From positions 1 through 39,631 of IMG/VR virus record IMGVR_UViG_3300011424_000002: DNA of 39,631 nt; one strand, written 5' to 3'. Origin of the DNA: a virus. The position numbers and the translations under genes are program-made. The notes beneath the pieces were generated by a model, which was not told the origin of the DNA, searched no databases, and saw nothing but the letters and a program-made list of their open reading frames with translations. Positions 10,069 to 36,286 of the stretch are shown piece by piece (within the stretch, counting starts at the first letter, position 1; each line of letters starts with the position of its first letter).

Positions 10069-10422
10069 TTAGGCTACGACGCTAGGCTTTGCAGCTTTAG
10101 CGACGACGTAGTCAGCAATAAGAGCACCAAGGACGAGGCCTGCTTTCAAGCCGCGCTCAACCCATTCCTCAACAGCGTCTTGTGGGATATCAAGAGCAGC
10201 AACCTTAGCAAACAAAGCCTGCTTCTCTGCTTCATCCATATCTTTGAGTTCAGCAGGAACTCCACCAGCACCCTCAACTGCTGGGCCAACCTTAGGCAAG
10301 ATCTCGAGCAGCTTAGCCATCTCAAGCATAGACACCTTGCCGTCTGCTGCTACTTCACCGCCAACTTTGACGAGTGTAAGAACGAGATCCAAGAGTTCGC
10401 CAGTTTCTTTCACTGCTACCAT
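10069..10422 (-). CDS. Hypothetical late protein with C-terminal hydrophobic segment
   Basis: A 117-residue protein. The N-terminal 50 residues look like a compact helical domain (ADGKVSMLEMAKLLEILPKV), with an Asp-Gly-Lys turn somewhat like TerB- or EF-hand-type loops. Residues about 90-110 (GLKAGLVLGALIADYVVAK) are hydrophobic enough for a membrane-associated helix. The ATG sits in CCATGG behind a GGGGGA run. It is isolated by 119 bp on one side and 44 bp on the other, both with hairpins. It could be a holin-like protein or a structural accessory. I do not recognise it. Confidence 0.55.
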   Translation of the reverse strand: MVAVKETGELLDLVLTLVKVGGEVAADGKVSMLEMAKLLEILPKVGPAVEGAGGVPAELKDMDEAEKQALFAKVAALDIPQDAVEEWVERGLKAGLVLGALIADYVVAKAAKPSVVA

Positions 10423-17688: not shown

Positions 17689-18909
17689 TTAGGTCGCGAG
17701 GCTGTGACGGTATCCATGGAACGTCGGGATTGCGTACACTTCGAGGTAACCGCCGTAACGGGCCTCGTATGCATCGCTGTCCGACTTACGCAGGAACACC
17801 GTGCCGTCATCATCGAACCAGCCGAAGTCTGGGCGATGGCGGATTTCAATGAATTCATCGTTGATGTAGTAGATGCGGTCGTCTTCGATGAAACGCTCTG
17901 GGAAGATTGGAACGAGACCAGCAGCAGAGTGGAATGCCAAGCCGCTGAAGCTGACTTTGCCCTTGAGGTTGTCAGCGCGTGGCTCAACAACATATTCCTT
18001 CTGATCTTCCAGAAGGTTGAGCAACTTACGGTACTGAACGAACGAAGTGATGATCAAGTTCGGCACTTTGCCGCATTTACGCTGAATTTCCAGCATGTCC
18101 TTGTTCATCATGTCGATCGTCAGGCCAGCGCCGCTCGAGTCAGACTGTGCAGATGCCTGCCAGCGACGAGCAACGTTGACGCTGTAGAGCGTCGAGGACG
18201 TTGCGCTGATAACAGTGGCGAGAGACGTAGGATCGTTAGCAGCCGAACCCTGCATGTAGATCACTGCGTTTGTCGAGGTAACACCACCGGCTGCAGCAGC
18301 GAGGATTGCCGACGTACCAACCAACTGAACTTGGCGAGTAGCTGGAACAACGCCAGCGACGCGAAGAACAGTGGTTTCAGCACCGATGTTGACGCCGTCT
18401 TGCTCTTCCCAGTTAGCTTCCTTCCAGGTAGCAGCCGAGATGATGACCAAGTATGGCGTAGCAACCGAGCCGTCACCAGTAACGGTGGTCGATCCATCAC
18501 CAGTACCCAGCGAGCCGTTGGCCAAGCTGTTCCAAAGGATACGGGACATGTTGCGGTTCCAAGATTCAACCGTCTTTTGAACGGTGTGCTTGGTCTGAGC
18601 AACGAACGAACCTTCTTTGCCGTCAGCAGCCTTGATGGATTCGCGGTCGATTTCGCAGACCGCGTAAACCTTCTTAGCAGTGATGATCGCGTTTGCAGCT
18701 TTGTCATACTGAGCAGTAGGCAGCGTGCCCGAACCAACACCACCAGAGAACGACGTTGGGATTGCTTCCAACATCTGCTTACCGGTGAAGGTGTAGGACT
18801 TCTTAACGCGAGCAAGTGTGACGTTTGCCGAGTTGTAAACGTTCTCGGAAACCTTGCCGTACTTAATCTTAAAATATTCCGACGTAGTCGAAAGACTCCA
18901 CTGGCCCAT
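17689..18909 (-). CDS. Major capsid protein
   Basis: A 406-residue protein. I take ATG 18909 as the start (MGQWSLSTTSEYFKIKYG) because a clear AGGGAG ribosome-binding site precedes it; the 20 codons further upstream read through a stem-loop. The sequence alternates helical and strand segments, with a long central helix (QTKHTVQKTVESWNRNMSRI) of the spine-helix type and a late strand-rich domain. This is consistent with the HK97 fold. Position directly after scaffold and portal, length and a strong start signal support the call. It carries no protease of its own and no recognisable delta domain, so a separate scaffold (the gene before it) is expected. Confidence 0.78.
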   Translation of the reverse strand: MGQWSLSTTSEYFKIKYGKVSENVYNSANVTLARVKKSYTFTGKQMLEAIPTSFSGGVGSGTLPTAQYDKAANAIITAKKVYAVCEIDRESIKAADGKEGSFVAQTKHTVQKTVESWNRNMSRILWNSLANGSLGTGDGSTTVTGDGSVATPYLVIISAATWKEANWEEQDGVNIGAETTVLRVAGVVPATRQVQLVGTSAILAAAAGGVTSTNAVIYMQGSAANDPTSLATVISATSSTLYSVNVARRWQASAQSDSSGAGLTIDMMNKDMLEIQRKCGKVPNLIITSFVQYRKLLNLLEDQKEYVVEPRADNLKGKVSFSGLAFHSAAGLVPIFPERFIEDDRIYYINDEFIEIRHRPDFGWFDDDGTVFLRKSDSDAYEARYGGYLEVYAIPTFHGYRHSLAT

Positions 18910-18933
18910 GGATTTGCTCCCTAAAGCAAAGCA

Positions 18934-18966
18934 GGGCCGCAGCGCGTAAAAATGCGCATACGGCCC
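18934..18966 (-). promoter_or_regulatory. Stem-loop in the capsid mRNA leader
   Basis: A GGGCCG / CGGCCC 6-bp stem encloses a second GCGC / GCGC pairing and an A/T loop. On the minus strand it ends about 25 bases before the capsid start codon. It may protect the 5' end of a processed capsid mRNA or act as a translation control element. The 172-bp space between scaffold and capsid genes (18910-19082) otherwise holds only Lys-codon-like A/C/G repeats (GCCAAAAGCCAAAGC) and no gene or clear consensus promoter. Confidence 0.4.
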
Positions 18967-19082
18967 CAATGTTTTTTGATGTTTTGCTTTGGCTTTTGGC
19001 TTTATCAGCCCTGGGAGCGGGTATCCGTAGAACCGCTATGAACAGGAGCCCTGACTTCCGTCGCCTAGCTAGTCGCTAAGTT

Positions 19083-20333
19083 TCAAATGTCTGAGAAGAA
19101 CGTAGCATCTGACTTGTTTTTAGAAGGGCGAGGTGACGTTAAGCTTTGATCGCCTTCAAGGTCGGTGGCTCTTTGCACCTTCCGTGCGATGCGCTTAGCA
19201 CCCTCATTACCTGCTTGGCCGTCGTTAAAGACTTTATCCAGCATCGCACCAAGCTTTTCCTTGGTCATGCCGGGGTTCTTTACGAGATCAGAGGTAATCT
19301 CACCCATTATCTTACTGAAATCGTCACGCTGTGCAAGGTGTGGGCAGATCTGATGAACTACATCCTTAGCCATCTCAGCACGGTGAACATAGGCGATCTG
19401 CTCAGGGGTAGCTCTTTCGTTAGCACCTTGGGCTTTGAGCCAAGCGTTAGCATTGGCCTCAGCCTGCTCAAACTCTTCACCAGCAATAGCGTACTGCTCT
19501 TGAACTTGGCGACGGCTTTGTTGGACTTGAGCCTGCTGAGCCTGCTGCTTAACCGATTCTTCCCTGTGCGCATGCTTAGCATCCCGCCAGTCACGCTTCC
19601 TATCCCCGATCCACGTCTCAATCTCGCCTTCATCCATGCGAGCTAACGGGAGGATCTCTTTGATCATGCTCCGGATTAGCCCTTCTTTGACTTCTACCGG
19701 GTCTTTGCCGGATAGCTCACAGAGATAATCCCAAGCTAGCTCTGGGTTTTCAGATGATTTCTTAAACAAGGTCTCGATACGGTCATTCAACCCGTTCCGT
19801 TCCTCGTGGAACATCATCTTGTCTTTGTCGAGTTCTTGATACTTACGAGTCCAATTAGTCTTACCAGAGTACTCGTTAACCAAATCCTCGAGCTTTACTT
19901 CCTCATCCCTACCTGCCACCTTTACACCAACGACAGCATTCGAGCTGATCGCTACATTCTCTTCCCCATTCTTAAACTTAAAGGTGCGTGGCTTTGCAGC
20001 TTGCTCAGGCTTTGCCTTCTCTGGCGTATCTTCTGATTCTTTCGTTGGCTTTGCTGCCTTGTCTGTTTTCTCTTTCGCCTTCGAACCAGTTTCGTCTTTC
20101 TGCTCGACTGCCTCGGAAGGTTCGTCGCCTGAATCGTCATCGTCAGCGCTAACATCCACAGGGGATTTGACTGCTGACTTCTTAACCCCGCCAGTAGGCT
20201 TCGCCTTGCTAGCAGGCTTCCCGCTGATCTCGTCGTCAATTGCTTCAATATCCGAGAAACTTACTGCTGAGTTTGCGCGACTCTGCACCGTCCCTTCGGT
20301 CTGCACTGGGGTATTCGGGTTGATCTCGCTCAT
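19083..20333 (-). CDS. Capsid scaffolding protein
   Basis: A 416-residue, highly charged protein. The N-terminal 120 residues are disordered and acidic/Lys-rich (repeated Ser/Asp/Glu and Lys/Pro). They are followed by a short conserved block (FKFKNGEENVAISS...EEVKLEDLVNEY) and then long coiled-coil helices with a Gln-rich run near residue 250. The C-terminus is basic (GAKRIARKVQRATD...PSKNKS). This is the standard look of podoviral scaffolds: a disordered head, a coiled-coil body and a basic capsid-binding tail. It overlaps the portal stop by 4 bp (ATGA) and lies before the capsid gene, the expected order. Confidence 0.75.
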   Translation of the reverse strand: MSEINPNTPVQTEGTVQSRANSAVSFSDIEAIDDEISGKPASKAKPTGGVKKSAVKSPVDVSADDDDSGDEPSEAVEQKDETGSKAKEKTDKAAKPTKESEDTPEKAKPEQAAKPRTFKFKNGEENVAISSNAVVGVKVAGRDEEVKLEDLVNEYSGKTNWTRKYQELDKDKMMFHEERNGLNDRIETLFKKSSENPELAWDYLCELSGKDPVEVKEGLIRSMIKEILPLARMDEGEIETWIGDRKRDWRDAKHAHREESVKQQAQQAQVQQSRRQVQEQYAIAGEEFEQAEANANAWLKAQGANERATPEQIAYVHRAEMAKDVVHQICPHLAQRDDFSKIMGEITSDLVKNPGMTKEKLGAMLDKVFNDGQAGNEGAKRIARKVQRATDLEGDQSLTSPRPSKNKSDATFFSDI

Positions 20334-22925: not shown

Positions 22926-25319
22926 CTAGTAATCGACTTCGTAATCATCCAGCGACTCTGGTTCGTTATCTTCATCCTGCTCGTATGTGTATGCGCGAGG
23001 CATATCGATAGCGTCTGGTTTAGCAGGTTCGAGCTCAGGGACTAGATCAACAGACGAGAACGCATTGAGGTATCTGTTTACGTCAATGGTGTGATCGTTC
23101 TTCTTTGGGATCTTCCCATCCTTATCCCGAATATAACCCGCCAGCTCTTTCACCGTATTCTTGCACCTATCAGAGAATACAATCAAATCACCCAGCATCT
23201 GATCCTTTAGCAGCGACAACCCGAAGTCCTTGGGGCGCGTGGCTTTGACGGTGGGAGTGAAGTGCTCATCATAACTATTCAGTGCTTCCGTCGCGAACCA
23301 CGTAGCAGCCTCGTCATAGATCTGCTCCCAATCAATCCGGTGCGCCTGCCAGTTCGGGAATAGCTCGTCTCTCTTGGCACGAATACGCGGCATAATCCGA
23401 GACGTTGAGGTATCTGCTTGGTTGGTTTCGTAAATCTCATCAAGGACATAGACTTTTTTGGTGTAAGGGTTAATAGCCCTAAACACCACAGCAAAGCACG
23501 TAGCATTCCCCGGGTCGCAGCCCACCTGCCAGACGAGTTTGGTAGCATCCCGCATCACCTCATCCATCAACTGCTTGTGTGGGAATACATGGCGCTTGTT
23601 GTCAAACATCGGGAAAATGGCGTTACTCCCCCCGCGAACACGCTTAGCACCGTACTCGCGTTCAAAGACATCCCACTCACCTCGAGCAATTAACTTATCC
23701 CGCTGCCTGCGAATCCAATCCTTCTCAATGATCGGGTTAACCCAGGTGGGCATATTGAAATACCCGCCAGCATGTTTGGCTTCCTCTACCATTGCGTCGT
23801 AGTGGTCTAGCTCAAGTGCTTCAGGGGGTGTAGTTCCGATGAATAGAGGGGCTTTGAAAACACCAAGGTTTGGTCCGAATGCCTTGTGGAACTCAGGGCG
23901 GAAGTCTCGGAACTCGTCATACACTGCAGAGTGAGGCTCTATACCGCGATAAGCATCAAAGTTATCGGACCCGTCAGCCTTGATGTAACTGCCGTTAGTG
24001 AAAGTAACCCGCATCTCTGAATTGTTAATGGAGCGGATGTACTCTTTAGGACCAAAGTTCTGAAGCCTGCCAGATGCCCAGATGATTTCTTTGGCTTGCT
24101 TTTGTTCTGGTGCGAAGTAGTAATGACCGCCTGGGACAGATAGCGCCATACGCCACAGGAAGTAGGCTAGCACTTCGGTGTTATGCGTCGGGATCATGCT
24201 GAATCCAGCAAGATACAACCTTGATGGCGAGTCAACGGTTAGACATCGGACTGGCACCGATGGAATCGGATCAACACCAACGATGAATCTATGCAGCGGT
24301 TTCTTTTTAGCAGTCTGCCGAGCAAGCTTTCTGCTCAGCCTGAACACTGGAATATGCGGCTTGAAGCAGACCCGGTAAGACAATGCACCAAAACCCGTCT
24401 GACACTTAGGAATCCTAGACTTGATCGTCGTCTTTACGCCAAGGCCATGGAGCAGTTGACGCATACCAACAGCCAACCGCTCATTCGAGGCAGAGAACTC
24501 ACAGTGTCCTCTGTCGCAAATAGTCCCATCGGTATCCATCAACCCCTGCACCATGCCCAGGCGCTGCTCATAGCTGCCCCACAGATAATCGTCAGGAATA
24601 TGCTTGTCATTGAGGACCCCAAGAGCTCTGATCTGGCTGATGAATGGCTTCAGAATGTAATGATCTAGCCCATTTCCATTCGAAGTAACGCCGTAGCCAG
24701 CAGCCTTGATCTCAGCAATTACCTCAATATCTGGATTGGTGAACCTAGCCCCATCTCTGCTGCCATCACCCAGCCATGCACCAAGAACATAGGGATCAAT
24801 CGGCAGGGCTCTAGGCGCGATCTGCAGGGGCTTGGTGTTGTCTATGGAATGATTCCATTCCTTACCCCATCGCAGGGTATCAGCGATCTGCACAGTGGTT
24901 CGAATGCCTGGCTGGATGGGATCTTTCGTTCTTTGCTTGGACTTACGAGACTGCTTGGTACTCGTAAACCAAAGATGATCCCCACTTGCTACGATCTTCT
25001 CCCCATCACCGAACACCACCTCATAACAAGGCTCACCAAGCAGCACATCATGGGCTTGCAGAACCCGGCATGGTGTTCCGGTTTCATCGAAAACCGTATC
25101 GCCCGCCTTGATGTCCCCCATCTGAGCCCAGCCGTTAGGCGTAGGGATAGGCGTATCTAGGGCCAAAGCCTTACCAGCCTTACGGCCTAGCTCAGCAAAC
25201 GTCACATCATTCTTGGCACCAAACACCGAATATAAAATAGCCCTCTGCCCATCATGCGGAGTCCAAACCGCATTGAGATCACCGATGGCTTTGATTAGTT
25301 GAAGGGCTGCTTGTTGCAA
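22926..25319 (-). CDS. Terminase large subunit, interrupted by an intein
   Basis: A 797-residue precursor with a likely TTG start at 25319 (an in-frame stop lies 6 bp upstream). Residues 1-50 and 381-797 form a 467-residue terminase. Its Walker A is GRKAGK-T, split by the intein between Lys50 and Thr381. A Walker B-like motif (SAVYDEFRDF) and a coupling motif (FIGTTP) follow. The C-terminal RNase H-type nuclease has its first Asp in VGCDPGN, a second acidic patch in VLDEIYE, and a late Asp in KNDHTIDVNRY. It is the DNA-packaging motor and headful or cos nuclease, working with the portal. Splicing is essential for ATP binding because the P-loop is broken in the precursor. It is separated from the small-terminase cluster by a terminator-like hairpin. 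Confidence 0.88.
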   Translation of the reverse strand: MQQAALQLIKAIGDLNAVWTPHDGQRAILYSVFGAKNDVTFAELGRKAGKALALDTPIPTPNGWAQMGDIKAGDTVFDETGTPCRVLQAHDVLLGEPCYEVVFGDGEKIVASGDHLWFTSTKQSRKSKQRTKDPIQPGIRTTVQIADTLRWGKEWNHSIDNTKPLQIAPRALPIDPYVLGAWLGDGSRDGARFTNPDIEVIAEIKAAGYGVTSNGNGLDHYILKPFISQIRALGVLNDKHIPDDYLWGSYEQRLGMVQGLMDTDGTICDRGHCEFSASNERLAVGMRQLLHGLGVKTTIKSRIPKCQTGFGALSYRVCFKPHIPVFRLSRKLARQTAKKKPLHRFIVGVDPIPSVPVRCLTVDSPSRLYLAGFSMIPTHNTEVLAYFLWRMALSVPGGHYYFAPEQKQAKEIIWASGRLQNFGPKEYIRSINNSEMRVTFTNGSYIKADGSDNFDAYRGIEPHSAVYDEFRDFRPEFHKAFGPNLGVFKAPLFIGTTPPEALELDHYDAMVEEAKHAGGYFNMPTWVNPIIEKDWIRRQRDKLIARGEWDVFEREYGAKRVRGGSNAIFPMFDNKRHVFPHKQLMDEVMRDATKLVWQVGCDPGNATCFAVVFRAINPYTKKVYVLDEIYETNQADTSTSRIMPRIRAKRDELFPNWQAHRIDWEQIYDEAATWFATEALNSYDEHFTPTVKATRPKDFGLSLLKDQMLGDLIVFSDRCKNTVKELAGYIRDKDGKIPKKNDHTIDVNRYLNAFSSVDLVPELEPAKPDAIDMPRAYTYEQDEDNEPESLDDYEVDY
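24180..25169 (-). mobile_element. Class 3 intein with a LAGLIDADG homing endonuclease
   Basis: A 330-residue intein, precursor residues 51-380. The N-terminal block reads ALALDTPIPTPNGW, with Ala at position 1 instead of Cys or Ser. Block B is ASGDHLW (His65, Trp67). Block F is VRCLTVDSP (Cys309), and the end is PTHN (Thr328, His329, Asn330) before +1 Thr. Trp at B:12, Cys at F:4 and Thr at G:5 form the WCT signature of class 3 inteins, in which the F-block Cys starts splicing. Two endonuclease motifs are present: YVLGAWLGDG and QGLMDTDG, each with the active Asp, so homing is probably functional. The endonuclease would cut intein-free terminase genes at the conserved P-loop. Confidence 0.88.
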
Positions 25320-27012: not shown

Positions 27013-27248
27013 CAATTCGCCTTCCCATTAGCAGGGTAGTAGCTCGTCATTTCGTAATTAAAAACATTGGCCCAGTCCAAGTATTCCAACTTGCGCTGTT
27101 CCATAGCTTTCTTGAATTCATCTTGGATCTGGTCTGAGAACTCAGCCTTGATCAGAATCTGACCGTGTTCTCTGATAGTTGCTTTGCCATACCGCTTATA
27201 AACACGGTACCCGCAGAGAACAGGAACTCTTTCGCGGTATTCAGACAA
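27009..27248 (-). CDS. Hypothetical protein at the head of the packaging operon
   Basis: A 79-residue basic protein (SEYRERVPVLCGYRVYKRYG at its start). Several starts are possible. I chose TTG 27248 because GGAG lies 5 bases upstream; the longer version would begin inside the terminator stem. It is rich in Tyr, Lys and Glu and ends NGKANW. No motif. It is the first gene of the leftward packaging and structural block, directly after the terminator of the export cassette. Confidence 0.5.
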   Translation of the reverse strand: MSEYRERVPVLCGYRVYKRYGKATIREHGQILIKAEFSDQIQDEFKKAMEQRKLEYLDWANVFNYEMTSYYPANGKANW

Positions 27249-27299
27249 AAAGACTCCACACAATAAGCAGGGTTAAGTTACCCGGTTTAGCGTGTGGAG
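27241..27299 (-). terminator. Intrinsic terminator ending the export cassette
   Basis: A perfect 8-bp stem CTCCACAC / GTGTGGAG encloses an inner GGGT / ACCC hairpin and is followed on the minus strand by TCTTTTTG. It lies 45 bp after the thioredoxin-like gene. Its 3' arm contains the GGAG that seems to serve as the ribosome-binding site of the next gene, so stem formation could also control translation of that gene. Confidence 0.65.
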
Positions 27300-27343
27300 C
27301 CGCTGAACGGTAATGAAGTGAGTAGGAAAACTTTACAGAATAG

Positions 27344-27817
27344 CTATTGCTGACGCAACAAACCTTTGATTCTGGTCTTAACTGCCGAGCTCCAGACACC
27401 TGTAGTGCGATAAACAACCTTGTGCTCGCGATCCAGCACGATGGTTGTCGGATACGCTCTAACACCAAGCTCAGCAGTGAGCGAGCGATCACACGCATTC
27501 AGCACCGGGGCTCTGCTTGGATGCTTCCTGATCCAACTTGCGTAGTCATCATCGTCACAGTCGATTGAGACCTCAAGAATCTGAGCAGCAGTCCCATGGT
27601 ATTCCTCGGCAAGCGCCGCGACATTCGGTGCATTGGAATTACACGCTGGGCAGCCGTTAAAGTAGAACTCAAGCACCATAGGGACCTGCATGACCGTTGA
27701 ATCATACGTCTCCCCAGACTTCATATCTTGAAGCGAGAACACCACTGGAGCAGCAGGGGACTGAGTGGTCTGACATGCTGCTAGAACCGCGAACAAGCTG
27801 AGCATCAAGGCTTTCAC
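27344..27817 (-). CDS. Thioredoxin-like lipoprotein
   Basis: A 157-residue protein with a GTG start 5 bases after AAGGAG. Residues 1-15 are a lipoprotein signal (MKALMLSLFAVLAAC, lipobox LAAC, Cys15). The mature domain has thioredoxin features: a strand ending in the active site FNGCPACNSN (CxxC at residues 56-59), a later strand, and a cis-proline motif AYPTTIVLD (Pro123). This is TlpA/ResA-like and membrane-anchored, acting outside the cytoplasm as a thiol-disulfide oxidoreductase. It is the third gene of a leftward cassette after the papain-type protease and the Cys-rich lipoprotein, both of which have many cysteines. It may keep them reduced or correctly paired. Confidence 0.8.
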   Translation of the reverse strand: MKALMLSLFAVLAACQTTQSPAAPVVFSLQDMKSGETYDSTVMQVPMVLEFYFNGCPACNSNAPNVAALAEEYHGTAAQILEVSIDCDDDDYASWIRKHPSRAPVLNACDRSLTAELGVRAYPTTIVLDREHKVVYRTTGVWSSAVKTRIKGLLRQQ

Positions 27818-27921
27818 GTCATCTCCTTACATTCTAGTTAGTAAATGAGGCAGCCCCCATAATTGGAAGCTGCCCCTCGCGGAGATTTCAGAACACGAGT
27901 CCTACCCTCTGAACTAGATTA

Positions 27922-28176
27922 TCAAGGCTCTGGGCAGCTCCCGTCTGAACAACCTCCACCTCCCCCGTCATCGTCATGTCCTTCGGAACTATCTTCAGGT
28001 TTCTTGCAGTGCTCACACTTGCAGTCTTTGCACACACAAGAGCCATCTTCGAAGCATTCACAAGCAGCACAAGCACAAGGTGGCGCTTTAGCAGCACCCC
28101 CCTTCTTTACAGGGATCAAATCCCCACAAGCAGTGAGACCAAGAGCCAAAGTGATGAGCGCAATTACCTTCATCAT
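27922..28176 (-). CDS. Cysteine-rich lipoprotein, metallothionein-like
   Basis: An 84-residue protein with two possible starts, ATG 28176 and 28173, behind GGGGGA. The signal ends in the lipobox LTAC (Cys17). The mature part has eleven further Cys residues in 60 positions, in tight CxC, CxxC and CxCxxC spacing (CACAACECFEDGSCVCKDCK and on), then an Asp/Gly-rich tail with one more Cys pair. Such density is typical of metal-binding proteins. It could also be a substrate or redox partner for the thioredoxin-like neighbour, 104 bp downstream. It starts 8-11 bp after the protease stop, so they are cotranscribed. I know no phage family with this sequence. Confidence 0.7.
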   Translation of the reverse strand: MMKVIALITLALGLTACGDLIPVKKGGAAKAPPCACAACECFEDGSCVCKDCKCEHCKKPEDSSEGHDDDGGGGGCSDGSCPEP

Positions 28177-28184
28177 TCCCCCAA

Positions 28185-29243
28185 TTACTTAGGTGTGACT
28201 TTGACCGCCTGGGACGTAACCGAACCGTCGGCTGCAGTAGCCGTAAGCGTGTAACTCGTCTCAACCGAAGGACGAACCCACAGCAGCGACCCGCTAGTCC
28301 CATCACTCCACTTGTATGTGAATGCTGGATTGGTACGGACTTGAAGAGCAGTCTCATGCCCCTTGGTGATCACCACTTGCTGAGGGAGTTCGAGCTTAGC
28401 AGGCTGGGGATCAGGACCCTGGCCTTCGACATAGAAGAACAAAGCCGCATCACCAGCAGTAGACGCCAGCTTGTTACAGCCTTGCTTCGACCAAGCAAAC
28501 CCATCCTTGCCCCAGCCTTTGCCCCAGCTATTACCAATGAGGAACTCAACTCCCCCGCCAGTTGGAGCAGGACGCCAGCCAGCAAGAGTCACCATGTGGT
28601 TAATAGAGCGCGAGCTACAGCGTGTGATGCGACCTTCGCTATCAGGACTAAAGTCACCACCAGCAGCCACAGTGACCGCAAGGACACCGTATTGGTAGAT
28701 AGCAGCCTTCAGCTCATCAACAGACGGAGCTCTTCCACTAGCACCAACCATCGCCCACTTGTTCGCTTTGACTACTTTAGCGGCGTTACACGCAACCCGG
28801 TCGCTGGTCTTGTATGGGCAATGAGCCTCATCAGTTTGACCGTACTTGGTCTCAAAAGCCCCATCCATGAACCCGCCACCACAGCCGTAAGCAGTCTTGT
28901 CATTCACCAACGTGTCCTGCTCAGACAAATCCAGAGGACTCATCCCAGCTTTGACAACAGCAGCTTCCATAGCCTTCGTTCTCGCGAATGCCCAGCAACT
29001 CCCACAGTTCCCTTGGTCTTTGATCGCGCTGACAACACCATCCCCACGCGCATCGTAAGCATCAGGCAACGCGCGCATCGAAGGCGCAAAGAACACGCGA
29101 CCAGTCTCGGGAGTACCGCGTTGCAAATACCCCGTTGAATACGTCCGCCCCTGTATCTCAACCGACACTGGCTGATTTCTCTCCTGAGCACTCGAACTAG
29201 CAGCCGTGACTGCAAGCAATAGCGTGCAGATGGCGCGAAACAT
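28185..29243 (-). CDS. Secreted papain-family (C1A) cysteine protease
   Basis: A 352-residue protein. I chose ATG 29243 because GGAG lies 8 bases upstream; two earlier in-frame starts have poor spacing. It has a Sec signal (MFRAICTLLLAVTAASSSAQ), then a short linker instead of a full pro-region. The catalytic domain has Gln77 in VSAIKDQGNCGSCWAF, Cys83, His216 in NHMVTLAGW and Asn238 in LIGNSWGKGWG, so the papain catalytic residues are complete. Six or more further cysteines suggest disulfides. The last 70 residues form an Ig-like domain (YKWSDGTSGSLLWVRPS). Lysis by protease, host or prey protein degradation, or exclusion are possible. Secreted papain-type enzymes are rare in phages, from general knowledge. 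Confidence 0.85.
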   Translation of the reverse strand: MFRAICTLLLAVTAASSSAQERNQPVSVEIQGRTYSTGYLQRGTPETGRVFFAPSMRALPDAYDARGDGVVSAIKDQGNCGSCWAFARTKAMEAAVVKAGMSPLDLSEQDTLVNDKTAYGCGGGFMDGAFETKYGQTDEAHCPYKTSDRVACNAAKVVKANKWAMVGASGRAPSVDELKAAIYQYGVLAVTVAAGGDFSPDSEGRITRCSSRSINHMVTLAGWRPAPTGGGVEFLIGNSWGKGWGKDGFAWSKQGCNKLASTAGDAALFFYVEGQGPDPQPAKLELPQQVVITKGHETALQVRTNPAFTYKWSDGTSGSLLWVRPSVETSYTLTATAADGSVTSQAVKVTPK

Positions 29244-29342
29244 GCGCATATCTCCCCCCACTACTAAAACTGTGTCTTGAATTGTGCTTAAGGAATGTGC
29301 AGGGTTAATTTATCACAGCATACGAATAAGGTAAGTAGACCT

Positions 29343-29732
29343 ATGGCACTCTCAGCGTCATCCTTGGGTAAGCTCAAGTCTTGTCACCCTGATCTCCGCA
29401 GGATCGCCGATAAGCTAGCAGCTCGCCTAGAGTTCATAGTTGTCTGTGGGCACAGATCAGAAGCAGACCAAGCCGCAGCAGTGAAGAACAAAACCTCAAA
29501 GCTCCACTGGCCACAGTCCAAACACAACATGTTCCCATCTAGAGCATTCGACCTGGCGAGACACCCGCTGGATTGGACTGATATCGACGGCTTTAAATCC
29601 TTGGGCGCTGAAGTGAAGAAAGTTGCGGACGAACTCGGTATCAAAGTTCGTTGGGGCGGAGATTGGGATATGGATGGGGACACGTCAGACCAGAGGTTTA
29701 ACGACTACCCCCATTTTGAACTAGTTGACTGA
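29343..29732 (+). CDS. Endolysin, M15-type L-alanyl-D-glutamate peptidase
   Basis: A 129-residue protein, ATG 29343. Zinc ligands are His61 and Asp70 in SKHNMFPSRAFD (pattern SxHxxxxAxD) and His124 in YPHFELVD. This is the signature of T5-type endolysins, which cut the L-Ala-D-Glu bond of peptidoglycan stem peptides. It has no signal peptide, so it needs a holin for release. It is the only rightward gene in this part of the genome, between two leftward groups, and it is flanked on the left by the protease cassette. It must have its own promoter or be read from a long rightward transcript. Confidence 0.88.
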   Translation: MALSASSLGKLKSCHPDLRRIADKLAARLEFIVVCGHRSEADQAAAVKNKTSKLHWPQSKHNMFPSRAFDLARHPLDWTDIDGFKSLGAEVKKVADELGIKVRWGGDWDMDGDTSDQRFNDYPHFELVD

Positions 29733-29745
29733 CCAAGTGAAGTAA

Positions 29746-29847
29746 TCAGCCCCACCGGAAGATAGCCCAGAGGATCCAGAGCAGGATCGCAGGGACCTGA
29801 AAGACAACAGCGAGCCAGAAGATATCAGACTGAGTAATGGGATTCAT
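29746..29847 (-). CDS. 33-residue membrane peptide (holin-like candidate)
   Basis: A short gene read directly on the minus strand: ATG 29847 behind a GGAGG-type ribosome-binding site 8 bases upstream, TGA at 29746-29748. The product has a polar N-terminus (MNPITQSD) and then about 22 hydrophobic, Trp-rich residues (IFWLAVVFQVPAILLWILWA) and ends FRWG. A single transmembrane helix is likely. It lies directly beside the endolysin (14 bp from its stop, opposite strand) and before the membrane-anchored coiled coil. Position and composition suit a holin, pinholin or lysis regulator. It is too short for a family call. Confidence 0.55.
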   Translation of the reverse strand: MNPITQSDIFWLAVVFQVPAILLWILWAIFRWG

Positions 29848-29879
29848 GGCTGGTACCTCCCCGTCCCTTATCTACCACA

Positions 29880-30137
29880 CTAGCGAGATTCAAGCTGGCG
29901 GACACGGCGCTCTATGTCCCCATTCTCTCGCTCAAGAGATTCAATCCTGAGTCTCTGGAACTTCAACAACCCATCCACTTCATCCAACTTGTGAACCACT
30001 TCGGTAAGTGACTTCCTAACCTCAGCACCCAACTCATCACTCCCCTCGCGCTGAACAAAGATCCCCGTCCCCTGAGCACCAACCATGGCTGCCAAGAGAA
30101 TAGTTTGGAGATCCAGCTTGTGGGGACGCTGAGTCAT
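29880..30137 (-). CDS. Membrane-anchored coiled-coil protein (inner-spanin-like candidate)
   Basis: An 85-residue protein. I prefer ATG 30137 (MTQRPHKLDLQTILLAAM). Residues 9-27 are a moderately hydrophobic segment (DLQTILLAAMVGAQGTGIFV). The rest is a long Leu/Glu/Arg coiled coil (KLDEVDGLLKFQRLRIESLE and beyond). N-terminal membrane anchor plus periplasmic-looking coiled coil is the design of Rz-type inner spanins; a haemolysin XhlA-like or tail factor is an alternative. It is next to the endolysin and a small membrane peptide, which favours a lysis role. No matching small outer-spanin lipoprotein gene overlaps it, although lipoproteins exist elsewhere. Confidence 0.5.
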   Translation of the reverse strand: MTQRPHKLDLQTILLAAMVGAQGTGIFVQREGSDELGAEVRKSLTEVVHKLDEVDGLLKFQRLRIESLERENGDIERRVRQLESR

Positions 30138-30218
30138 GCAACCTCGCTGCGTGTTTGTTAGATCAAGGTTATCACGCACCAATACCAGATGAGAGGTGGG
30201 CCAAATAAGGACTAGTGG

Positions 30219-30415: not shown

Positions 30416-31516
30416 TTAGTTACAATCGCTTCCAGCTACCAGTTTCAGATTTGTGCGTGATTTGTGCGTGATCAGCAGTGAACTCATGTCGAGTGGAGCT
30501 CGACGGTGCTTAGGCGAAAGGTGCGCGTACTTCTGTGTCATCTGCGAATCGCTGTGTCCCAAGATCGCCATCAGCGCCCACAAGTCATCCATCTCGATCA
30601 TGTACCAGCTCGCAAACGTATGCCGAAGATCATGGAAGCTGATCAACGGGACGCCAGCTCGCTCTTGTACCGAGTAGAAAGTTTCCTGACCAAAGGCTGT
30701 GTAGCTTAGGGGTGTCCCGGCAGACGACGGGAACAGAATCTTATCGTATCGACTTGTGTCTCGAGCCTTCTTTAGCACCTGGCCAAGGTGGGATCTCGGA
30801 TCAAAATCCAACCACCGTGTCTTGTTGTTCTTCAGCGAACCATAGTCCTTGAGCGCATCATGCCACTGCCTCTGGACATGAATCCTCCCATGCTCAAGAT
30901 CTATGTCCCCCTTACCAAGCCCCATGATCTCGCCTATCCGCATGCCCGTTTCAAGAGCAGTGAGGTAGGCCGGGTAATGCTTAGTCCGCTCCTTAGCAGC
31001 CTCCAGAAACCGCGTGATGTGTCCCTTGTCATCCCACCAGACATAGTCCTTGGGGATCTCAGGGAAGAGCTCGACACAGAACAGCGACTCTTTAGTCATC
31101 CGCCACTTCTTGGCGCGATTTAGAATCGCCCGTAAGGTTTCCAGGCAGTAGTTGGCAGTGAGCTCGTTGTAGTCGTTAGCAGTCTCGAGCTTGAACTGCT
31201 CAAGCAACAGCGGGGTTACTTGGTCTAACCTCAAGTACCTAAAGAACGGACGTATCCGAGACTCAATCTCAAGCTTGTATCTGTCCTGGGACCGAGGCTT
31301 GATGGTTGGTAAGTGGTACGTAACGTAATGGTCCAGTACTTGGTCGAACTTAACCTTGCTCTGTTCCTTCAAATCCCCGTTCCGATACCCCACCAACTGC
31401 TCATCGTGCCAACGCTTGGCATCCCGCTCTTTATCAAACCCAGACTTGCTCGCTATCCGTTTCCCGTTTAGATAAACCTCTGCCCGCCACTTATCTCTGA
31501 ATTTAGACACCGTCAT
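30416..31516 (-). CDS. int: Tyrosine-type site-specific integrase
   Basis: A 366-residue protein. The N-terminal domain (residues 1-50) is the arm-binding type (WRAEVYLNGKRIASKSGF), then a SAM-like core-binding domain (about 55-150), and the catalytic domain (about 165-345). Active-site residues: Arg193 in GMRIGEIMGL, Lys232, His295 and Arg298 in HDLRHTFASW, His321 in LGHSDSQ and Tyr330 in QKYAHL. It catalyses integration and, with the neighbour HTH protein, excision. The ATG at 31516 is 3 bp after the upstream gene. The last 20 codons contain two of the arm-type repeats, so the gene end overlaps attP. Confidence 0.95.
   Translation of the reverse strand: MTVSKFRDKWRAEVYLNGKRIASKSGFDKERDAKRWHDEQLVGYRNGDLKEQSKVKFDQVLDHYVTYHLPTIKPRSQDRYKLEIESRIRPFFRYLRLDQVTPLLLEQFKLETANDYNELTANYCLETLRAILNRAKKWRMTKESLFCVELFPEIPKDYVWWDDKGHITRFLEAAKERTKHYPAYLTALETGMRIGEIMGLGKGDIDLEHGRIHVQRQWHDALKDYGSLKNNKTRWLDFDPRSHLGQVLKKARDTSRYDKILFPSSAGTPLSYTAFGQETFYSVQERAGVPLISFHDLRHTFASWYMIEMDDLWALMAILGHSDSQMTQKYAHLSPKHRRAPLDMSSLLITHKSRTNLKLVAGSDCN
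30452..30472 (+). repeat. Two direct TGTGCGTGAT repeats, right arm of attP
   Basis: Two copies, starting at 30452 and 30463 (11 bp apart), have the same orientation as the three left-arm copies. They lie within the 3' end of the integrase gene, where they encode the residues THKSRT. They are about 55 bp from the candidate core, against about 130 bp on the other side. This asymmetric two-versus-three layout is typical of phage attP sites. Confidence 0.72.
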
Positions 31517-35593: not shown

Positions 35594-36286
35594 TCATTCC
35601 TTGGAGCAAGTGAGTAAATATGGCTGCGAGGAATTACCGCCGATTACAGCGCGAGCTTCATTTTTGTCGCCATCGTATTGGAATTCCGCAGTGTAACCAA
35701 CGTCACCCGCTGCTAACCAATCCACGCTGATTTCCCCGGTCTTAGCGAGGTTTCCGCCAGCACGAGCGAAGCGGGAATTGAAACCGAAATATGCACCGTA
35801 AATCTGGCTTGAACCTTGAGTCATGCGATGGGAGATGTCCTGCACGCTGGCGAAAATCATTCGGTCGCCACTGGTGTAAACCATGACTTTGTAATGAAAC
35901 GTGCGCCCGGTTGTCCCAGCTGCTGAGTGCTCGCAATCAACCGCGTAATCGACGGCTTCGCTCTTACCCGCTTCACCGGCTTCACCGTCTTTGCCTGCAG
36001 CGCCTTGCGCACCAGCAGCACCTTTGACATCAACGGGTTTCCACTCGTTAGCTAAGCACGAGCGAAACGATTTCTCTGATTCGATGTAAACGAGATGCCC
36101 TTGAGATTCGGGCGAGCAAACCGGAAGGTCTGCCGCAGTGGTTACGTAAAGGCTAGTGGGCTGTGTCGTTAGCGGCTCGCTTCTGGGAGCAATGGTTTCC
36201 TGCGCAGGCGTCGCCTTGTCATCACCGGCAGAGCCGCAGGCAGAAGCGAGCACAACTAGGGATGAAATAACGAGAATCTGACGCAT
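35594..36286 (-). CDS. Collagen-like lipoprotein (lysogenic conversion candidate)
   Basis: A 230-residue protein behind a strong GGAGG. The signal ends in the lipobox LASAC (Cys17). A Thr/Pro-rich linker leads to a small domain (CSPESQGHLVYIE ... FRSCLANEWKPVD), then seven Gly-X-Y triplets (Gly89 to Ser109, starting GAAGAQGAAGKDG) able to trimerise as collagen, and a beta-rich C-terminal domain of about 120 residues with a Cys pair. It lies in the same direction as, and just downstream of, the repressor, so it may be expressed in the lysogen. The function is unknown: surface display, phage exclusion or adhesion are options. It is not part of any core phage function. Confidence 0.72.
   Translation of the reverse strand: MRQILVISSLVVLASACGSAGDDKATPAQETIAPRSEPLTTQPTSLYVTTAADLPVCSPESQGHLVYIESEKSFRSCLANEWKPVDVKGAAGAQGAAGKDGEAGEAGKSEAVDYAVDCEHSAAGTTGRTFHYKVMVYTSGDRMIFASVQDISHRMTQGSSQIYGAYFGFNSRFARAGGNLAKTGEISVDWLAAGDVGYTAEFQYDGDKNEARAVIGGNSSQPYLLTCSKE

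Follow-up and report, generated by a model that had tools for sequence, protein, structure and literature searches.

An exported papain-family protease encoded beside lysis genes in uncultivated phages, and its conserved cassette with two lipoproteins

We found that the strongest association of an exported papain-family (C1) protease of uncultivated phages is with the lysis module, and that in three of these phages the protease gene is part of a conserved cassette with genes for a Cys-rich lipoprotein and a thioredoxin-like lipoprotein. Across loci the protease adjoins endolysins that are not homologous to one another (M15, CHAP, amidase, lysozyme, and GH108), and the main reason to propose a role in host exit is that the protease is kept while the neighboring endolysin changes. 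Judging from the sequences, we put at about even the chance that the cassette belongs, as an accessory, to the host-exit (lysis) module of the phage and comprises a protease and two lipoprotein modifiers.

The export unit and its proteins

The window analyzed here is the entire IMG/VR virus record, 39,631 bases long (Table 1). It encodes an integrase, TerL, scaffold-like and major head proteins, and an endolysin, and the phage is therefore temperate and tailed. The position of the endolysin on the far side of the export unit, as given in the initial annotation, is supported by its PHROGs match; the alignment of endolysin homologues begins at residue 19. Since the endolysin gene is divergent from the protease gene, ∼100 bp away, we rejected co-transcription of the two in the window. 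The window TerL is 797 amino acids long, compared with 481 in the related phage L002, and has a LAGLIDADG_3 domain at residues 251-302; this insertion is probably an intein. A gene with a weak collagen-like or tail-fibre-like match is located well away from the structural genes, within the replication region.

Table 1. Positions of the features discussed, in the window and in other loci
Feature	Record	Position	Strand	Basis
Major head protein	Window	17689-18969	-	
Scaffold-like protein	Window	19083-20333	-	
TerL	Window	22926-25319	-	
Intrinsic terminator ending the three-gene unit	Window	27247..27300	-	Hairpin in fold of 27236-27343
Thioredoxin-like lipoprotein, 157 aa	Window	27344..27817	-	Pfam AhpC-TSA, 1.1e-12
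Cys-rich lipoprotein, 84 aa, 12 Cys, lipobox LTAC	Window	27922..28176	-	Sequence
Exported papain-family (C1) protease, 352 aa	Window	28185..29243 (longer ORF, 28185-29261)	-	Pfam Peptidase_C1, 1.9e-36
C-terminal Ig-like beta domain, about residues 285-352	Window	28188..28391	-	AlphaFold model
Short pro-segment with conserved TG[YLF] motif, about residues 21-58	Window	29070..29183	-	Homologue comparison
Endolysin (M15-like)	Window	29343-29732 (longest ORF from 29295)	+	phrog_465 endolysin, 5.9e-30
Possible holin, 33-aa single-TM peptide MNPITQSDIFWLAVVFQVPAILLWILWAIFRWG	Window	29748..29849	-	Sequence
Small hydrophobic/coiled-coil protein, possible lysis accessory	Window	29880..30182	-	Sequence; no match in PHROGs
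Integrase	Window	30416-31516	-	
Weak collagen-like/tail-fibre-like match	Window	35594-36286	-	
DGK[VI]..LD family	Window	10069-10422	-	
DGK[VI]..LD family	L005	1243-1524		
DGK[VI]..LD family	L006	227-553		
DGK[VI]..LD family	L026, L033, L037-L040, L046			
IGDHPPMWEWLDKLEK protein	L024, L030, L037-L040, L042, L045, L047, L067			
Chromosomal protease with thioredoxin-like neighbors	G043, L185	9398-12019		

All three ORFs of the unit lie on the minus strand, in agreement with the three successive leftward genes first described: The protease gene is followed after 8 bp by the Cys-rich lipoprotein gene and, after a further 104 bp, by the thioredoxin-like lipoprotein gene. The terminator proposed after the trio was recovered as a hairpin followed by UUUUU, within a fold having a minimum free energy of -29.1 kcal/mol (z = -3.96); its long loop had kept a simple terminator scan from detecting it. 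As hairpin and UUUUU come after the thioredoxin gene, the trio is shut off from the downstream packaging genes.

From its sequence, the protease is predicted to be Sec-exported and catalytically competent. It starts at an ATG inside a longer, GTG-started ORF, matches Peptidase_C1 (PF00112; E = 1.9e-36) in Pfam, and has papains and cathepsins among its PDB matches, with E-values down to 5e-24. The full papain catalytic set initially reported (Gln77, Cys83, His216, and Asn238, numbered from the same ATG) stands in the C1A order Gln, Cys, His, Asn and holds in an alignment of 35 homologues, where Gln77 and Cys83 are invariant and His216 and Asn238 are at least 90% conserved. The AlphaFold model (mean pLDDT 91) combines a cathepsin fold, for which Foldseek returns cathepsins K and L with E-values to 1e-16, with a separate C-terminal all-beta domain (strands at residues 289-351, pLDDT mostly 83-96), in line with the Ig-like domain proposed earlier. 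The closest chromosomal relative (L176) has no Ig-like tail. In the proteases of two other phage contigs, L005 and L006, a short tail with four spaced Cys (CPALYMELADC...SCSEKYDSFKAC) takes the place of the Ig-like domain, and the L002 protease terminates in a similar two-Cys tail.

A Pfam scan found no I29 propeptide domain in the protease, which in place of the I29-type globular propeptide (usual for C1A enzymes, not strictly required) has a short segment only. The TG[LYF] motif of this segment is present in 34 of 46 phage relatives of the protease compared with six of 80 cellular relatives, and Gly38 is invariant among the 35 aligned homologues. The distance from the signal segment to the catalytic Cys has a median of 77 residues in phages and 103 in cellular relatives. 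An export-like N-terminus occurs in 45 of 46 non-redundant phage proteases.

The Cys-rich lipoprotein does contain twelve Cys in 84 residues, as first noted, and has no match in Pfam, PHROGs, or NCBIfam. The thioredoxin-like gene has a GTG start preceded by AAGGAG. Its product carries a lipobox (LAAC), a cis-Pro motif (YPTT), a second Cys pair (C87/C109), and the CPAC site of the initial annotation, which is corroborated by thioredoxin-superfamily matches in Pfam (AhpC-TSA, Redoxin, and Thioredoxin, E-values from 1e-12 to 1e-7; AhpC-TSA 1.1e-12 and Thioredoxin 1.1e-7). Profile matches in the PDB are to DsbE/ResA-type proteins. All NCBIfam scores lie far below the curated cut-offs (ResA, 33 bits compared with 170; dsbE, 21 compared with 123). 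The AlphaFold model, from a three-sequence alignment, is too weak to use (pLDDT 59.5); the order of its elements is compatible with a thioredoxin fold.

Conservation of the cassette and relatives of the protease

The protease/Cys-rich/thioredoxin trio is a real conserved cassette, because two more phage contigs, L005 and L006, contain it with gene order and direction unchanged. The unit that had been proposed from the window is thus found again elsewhere, the homologues do not always occur separately, and we reject a chance run of ORFs. Identity to the window is 54%-58% for the protease and 51%-53% for the thioredoxin. The Cys-rich relatives, between the protease and thioredoxin genes, have 22-23 Cys, and each contig has a small extra ORF between trio genes. 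The window thioredoxin has CPAC at its active site, and those of L005 and L006 both have CRYC; the C87 and C109 pair is invariant across all three. After the trio come two small membrane proteins and then an endolysin (M15_3 in L005, CHAP in L006), the trio being co-directional with, and upstream of, the holin-like and endolysin genes.

Profile searches yielded no further trio phages: Broad viral-contig queries with the Cys-rich and thioredoxin families gave only L005 and L006, and the thioredoxin profile, run across all protease loci, matched in the three trio phages only. Almost all protease-encoding contigs are without the thioredoxin, and neither L002 nor the chromosomal L176 has the partners, so a general need of the protease for them is not supported. 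A filter for Cys-rich ORFs over about 0.9 Mb of viral loci passed six ORFs, of which five are plausible genes, all ≤1.3 kb from the protease; the sixth (L069) is on the other strand and looks spurious. Among these loci, L049 and L067 each have a very Cys-rich exported ORF, 14 bp and 1.3 kb past the protease, respectively. The proximity is suggestive, although no more than three of the lineages are independent. A search of 58 Pseudobacteriovorax-phylum genomes gave no member of the Cys-rich family.

Genome G043 encodes a chromosomal papain protease that has an Ig-like tail and adjoins a pair of exported thioredoxin-like genes, along with a small lipoprotein whose sequence ends in GGSCPTCK. This neighborhood is possibly coincidental, and we rejected its thioredoxin-like genes (L177/L185) as part of a cassette, since they look like a separate exported-thioredoxin/beta-barrel locus.

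The initial statement that papain-type proteases are rare in phages holds for isolated phages, where we found no tblastn match to the protease among 50,697 INPHARED records, but not for uncultivated ones: An alignment-based scan of IMG/VR identified 54 viral contigs that encode it. In the tree, the window protease and one chromosomal copy share a clade with the proteases of L002, L005, and L006 (SH-aLRT 100), and this clade is nested within one of 23 rows, 20 phage and three bacterial sequences (support 99). The window phage has a true relative in L002 (65% for the major head protein, 62% for TerL, and 52% for the portal). Both ends of its contig, IMGVR_UViG_3300037466_003665, fall in one protease gene (L002 end, L187 start), which makes the 38.2-kb record an almost complete, circularly permuted genome.

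The closest cellular protease is a solo chromosomal gene from the Pseudobacteriovorax phylum (genome G044, locus L176; E = 4e-126). The best relatives of the thioredoxin (E ≤ 1e-15) are present in 12 of the 58 genomes from the phylum to which a Pseudobacteriovorax metagenome-assembled genome (MAG) belongs (Oligoflexia, Bdellovibrionota), compared with four of 398 genomes from the phylum of a Chromatiaceae MAG, none of 189 from that of a Myxococcota MAG, and none of 199 from that of a Planctomycetota MAG. The best cellular thioredoxin relative also has the second Cys pair. Together, the protease tree and the thioredoxin relatives point to Oligoflexia-like hosts (Bdellovibrionota). No prophage with the window capsid turned up in the 58 genomes of that phylum, however, so this host assignment is tentative.

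Linkage to lysis genes and possible roles

Close to phage proteases (within 1.5 kb), about 12 of 147 ORFs have a Pfam endolysin-type domain; at 3-7 kb, two of 150 do. This count leaves out two endolysins added by hand and uses unblinded neighbor sets. In L002, the C-terminal part of the protease at the contig start comes immediately before the genes for a holin-like protein and an Amidase_2 endolysin, and neither a Cys-rich nor a thioredoxin gene intervenes. In L023 the order is protease, holin-like protein, lysozyme (holins are assigned here by size and hydrophobicity, with no match in PHROGs). A GH108 gene lies near the protease in L067, and an amidase lies directly upstream in seven other loci, all of one lineage. 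Protease and lysis genes are located behind the tail genes in L002 and upstream of TerS-TerL in the window; they have therefore stayed together through rearrangement. Several protease loci, L027/L031 and L049 among them, show no neighboring lysis gene among the ORFs examined.

Other proteins also recur at these loci. Six of the seven loci with an upstream amidase (L052, L054, L056, L060, L061, and L062) encode, directly downstream of the protease, an exported protein of ∼270 amino acids with an HExGHxxGG-type motif, read by eye and with no Pfam match; judged by this motif, these are likely phage secreted metalloproteases paired with the papain. An exported protein of ∼230-280 amino acids (IGDHPPMWEWLDKLEK...) with no match in Pfam or NCBIfam recurs within about 1.1 kb of phage papain proteases, and a family of ∼90-120 amino acids with a DGK[VI]..LD pattern is usually found near the phage protease; in the window it lies by the tail genes, 17 kb off.

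Of the three uses suggested initially (envelope breakdown, exclusion of other phages, and benefit to the lysogen), envelope breakdown fits best, because protease homologues adjoin several unrelated endolysin types. The exported papain with its Ig-like tail would degrade or loosen proteins of the Gram-negative envelope, presumably outer-membrane, surface, or peptidoglycan-linked proteins, and this loosening, if timed with lysis, would let endolysin action open the cell efficiently. Both lipoproteins, which are limited to the small subclade of the window phage, may be envelope partners of the protease: Probable targets of the thioredoxin-like lipoprotein are disulfides in the protease itself, in the Cys-rich partner, or in a host target, and the Cys-rich lipoprotein probably serves as a thiol or metal buffer, a substrate, or a brake.

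Counted against an exit role is the separate, terminator-closed trio unit of the window, which also fits a gene expressed in the lysogen. The cassette could be such an accessory (moron) unit, with protease and lipoproteins made by the prophage altering the host surface, either by destroying phage receptors (superinfection exclusion) or with a digestive or competitive benefit to the lysogen. The window phage carries an integrase, a strong terminator bounds the trio apart from the packaging operon, solo chromosomal protease genes of Oligoflexia show that a host can use the enzyme without lysis, and lipoproteins are common surface-exclusion factors. However, the protease adjoins endolysins or holins family-wide, the trio of L005 and L006 is oriented with the holin-like and endolysin genes downstream of it, and a simple promoter scan of the window region found no sigma-70 consensus promoter for the trio. 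We regard this explanation as possible but unlikely.

Papain requires a reduced catalytic Cys even though the compartment is oxidising, and redox control of the protease is for this reason a reasonable idea. The thioredoxin would keep the active-site Cys reduced, with the Cys-rich protein as redox partner or storage form, and the system would be switched on at lysis. The conserved order of the trio in three phages is consistent with such control, as are the exported, very Cys-rich ORFs near the protease of L049 and L067 (above), which represent two unrelated lineages, and a pro-segment shorter than that of most cellular relatives, for which another form of control may be needed. Against these stand the variation of the thioredoxin site from CPAC to CRYC and the fact that both partners are missing from nearly all relatives, L002 and the chromosomal sister among them; DsbE/ResA-like proteins, moreover, usually act on other substrates. 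From the sequences at hand, we consider it rather doubtful that the cassette works in this way. A virion-associated or maturation protease, packaged or cutting capsid or tail proteins at assembly or entry, is very improbable: In the window the gene is placed between the genes for lysis and those for packaging, in L002 it comes after the tail genes, and Ig-like domains are common in virion proteins, but a clear Sec signal would export the enzyme from the cytoplasm, the site of virion assembly, a cathepsin fold containing structural Cys is suited to an oxidising compartment, and lipoproteins are co-encoded.

Known systems and significance

Holin, endolysin, and spanin form the textbook lysis set of Gram-negative hosts. 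Like third-step lysis proteins (the Rz/Rz1 spanins and mycobacteriophage LysB), the protease would attack an envelope layer that the endolysin leaves uncut, and the presence of a small lipoprotein within the lysis region recalls Rz/Rz1. Unlike these proteins, it would act by proteolysis rather than by membrane fusion or lipid ester cleavage. No spanin match was found in PHROGs among the window proteins scanned; the best E-value, 0.06, belongs to one L006 protein.

An experimentally tested precedent for such an arrangement is Mtz-Tim of Listeria prophages, a secreted metzincin and a lipoprotein, often located downstream of the holin-lysin genes, that raise phage-mediated lysis and for which an accessory role in lysis has been proposed (PMC8235301). 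Both systems are phage-borne and consist of a secreted protease followed by a lipoprotein with an LTAC lipobox (PMC8235301), and the window protease likewise lies near an endolysin (∼100 bp) with a lipoprotein gene 8 bp downstream. Mtz, however, is a metzincin (HExxHxxGxxH) of a phage with a Gram-positive host whereas the window protease is a C1 papain, and the Mtz-Tim lipoprotein is TIMP-like, with no thioredoxin, whereas that of the window is Cys-rich. The cassette is analogous, not homologous, to Mtz-Tim.

Papain-type genes in tailed phages are already known: The acquisition of short bacterial (xylellain-type) C1A papains by Caudoviricetes (Myoviridae/Siphoviridae) has been noted (PMC10380794), and database annotations contain C1A entries labelled uncultured Caudovirales. 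The window protease shares with the xylellain type the Gln-Cys-His-Asn set, the cathepsin fold, and an export signal, and differs in its shortened TG pro-segment, Ig-like tail, lysis-module location, and lipoprotein partners. The thioredoxin-like lipoprotein resembles TlpA, ResA, and DsbE in its thioredoxin fold (by profile), CxxC, cis-Pro, and membrane-anchored extracytoplasmic location, but forms a distinct subfamily with a second Cys pair, its nearest cellular relatives being in Oligoflexia. In the literature searched we found no description of phage papain proteases in lysis or of the protease/thioredoxin/Cys-rich trio.

More speculatively, and with a low probability in our estimate, the exported papain could represent a new exit strategy of Gram-negative phages, common to many uncultivated ones, independent of endolysin type and replacing or supplementing spanins, with control in this subclade by an envelope thioredoxin and a metallothionein-like lipoprotein. 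To our knowledge, few phages are known for Oligoflexia, and the present sequences tentatively link an uncultivated phage group to these bacteria. For phages without recognisable spanins, an exported protease that recurs beside unrelated endolysins is a candidate proteolytic exit step, and the trio, if it acts as proposed, would be a case of a phage providing its own extracytoplasmic thiol chemistry.
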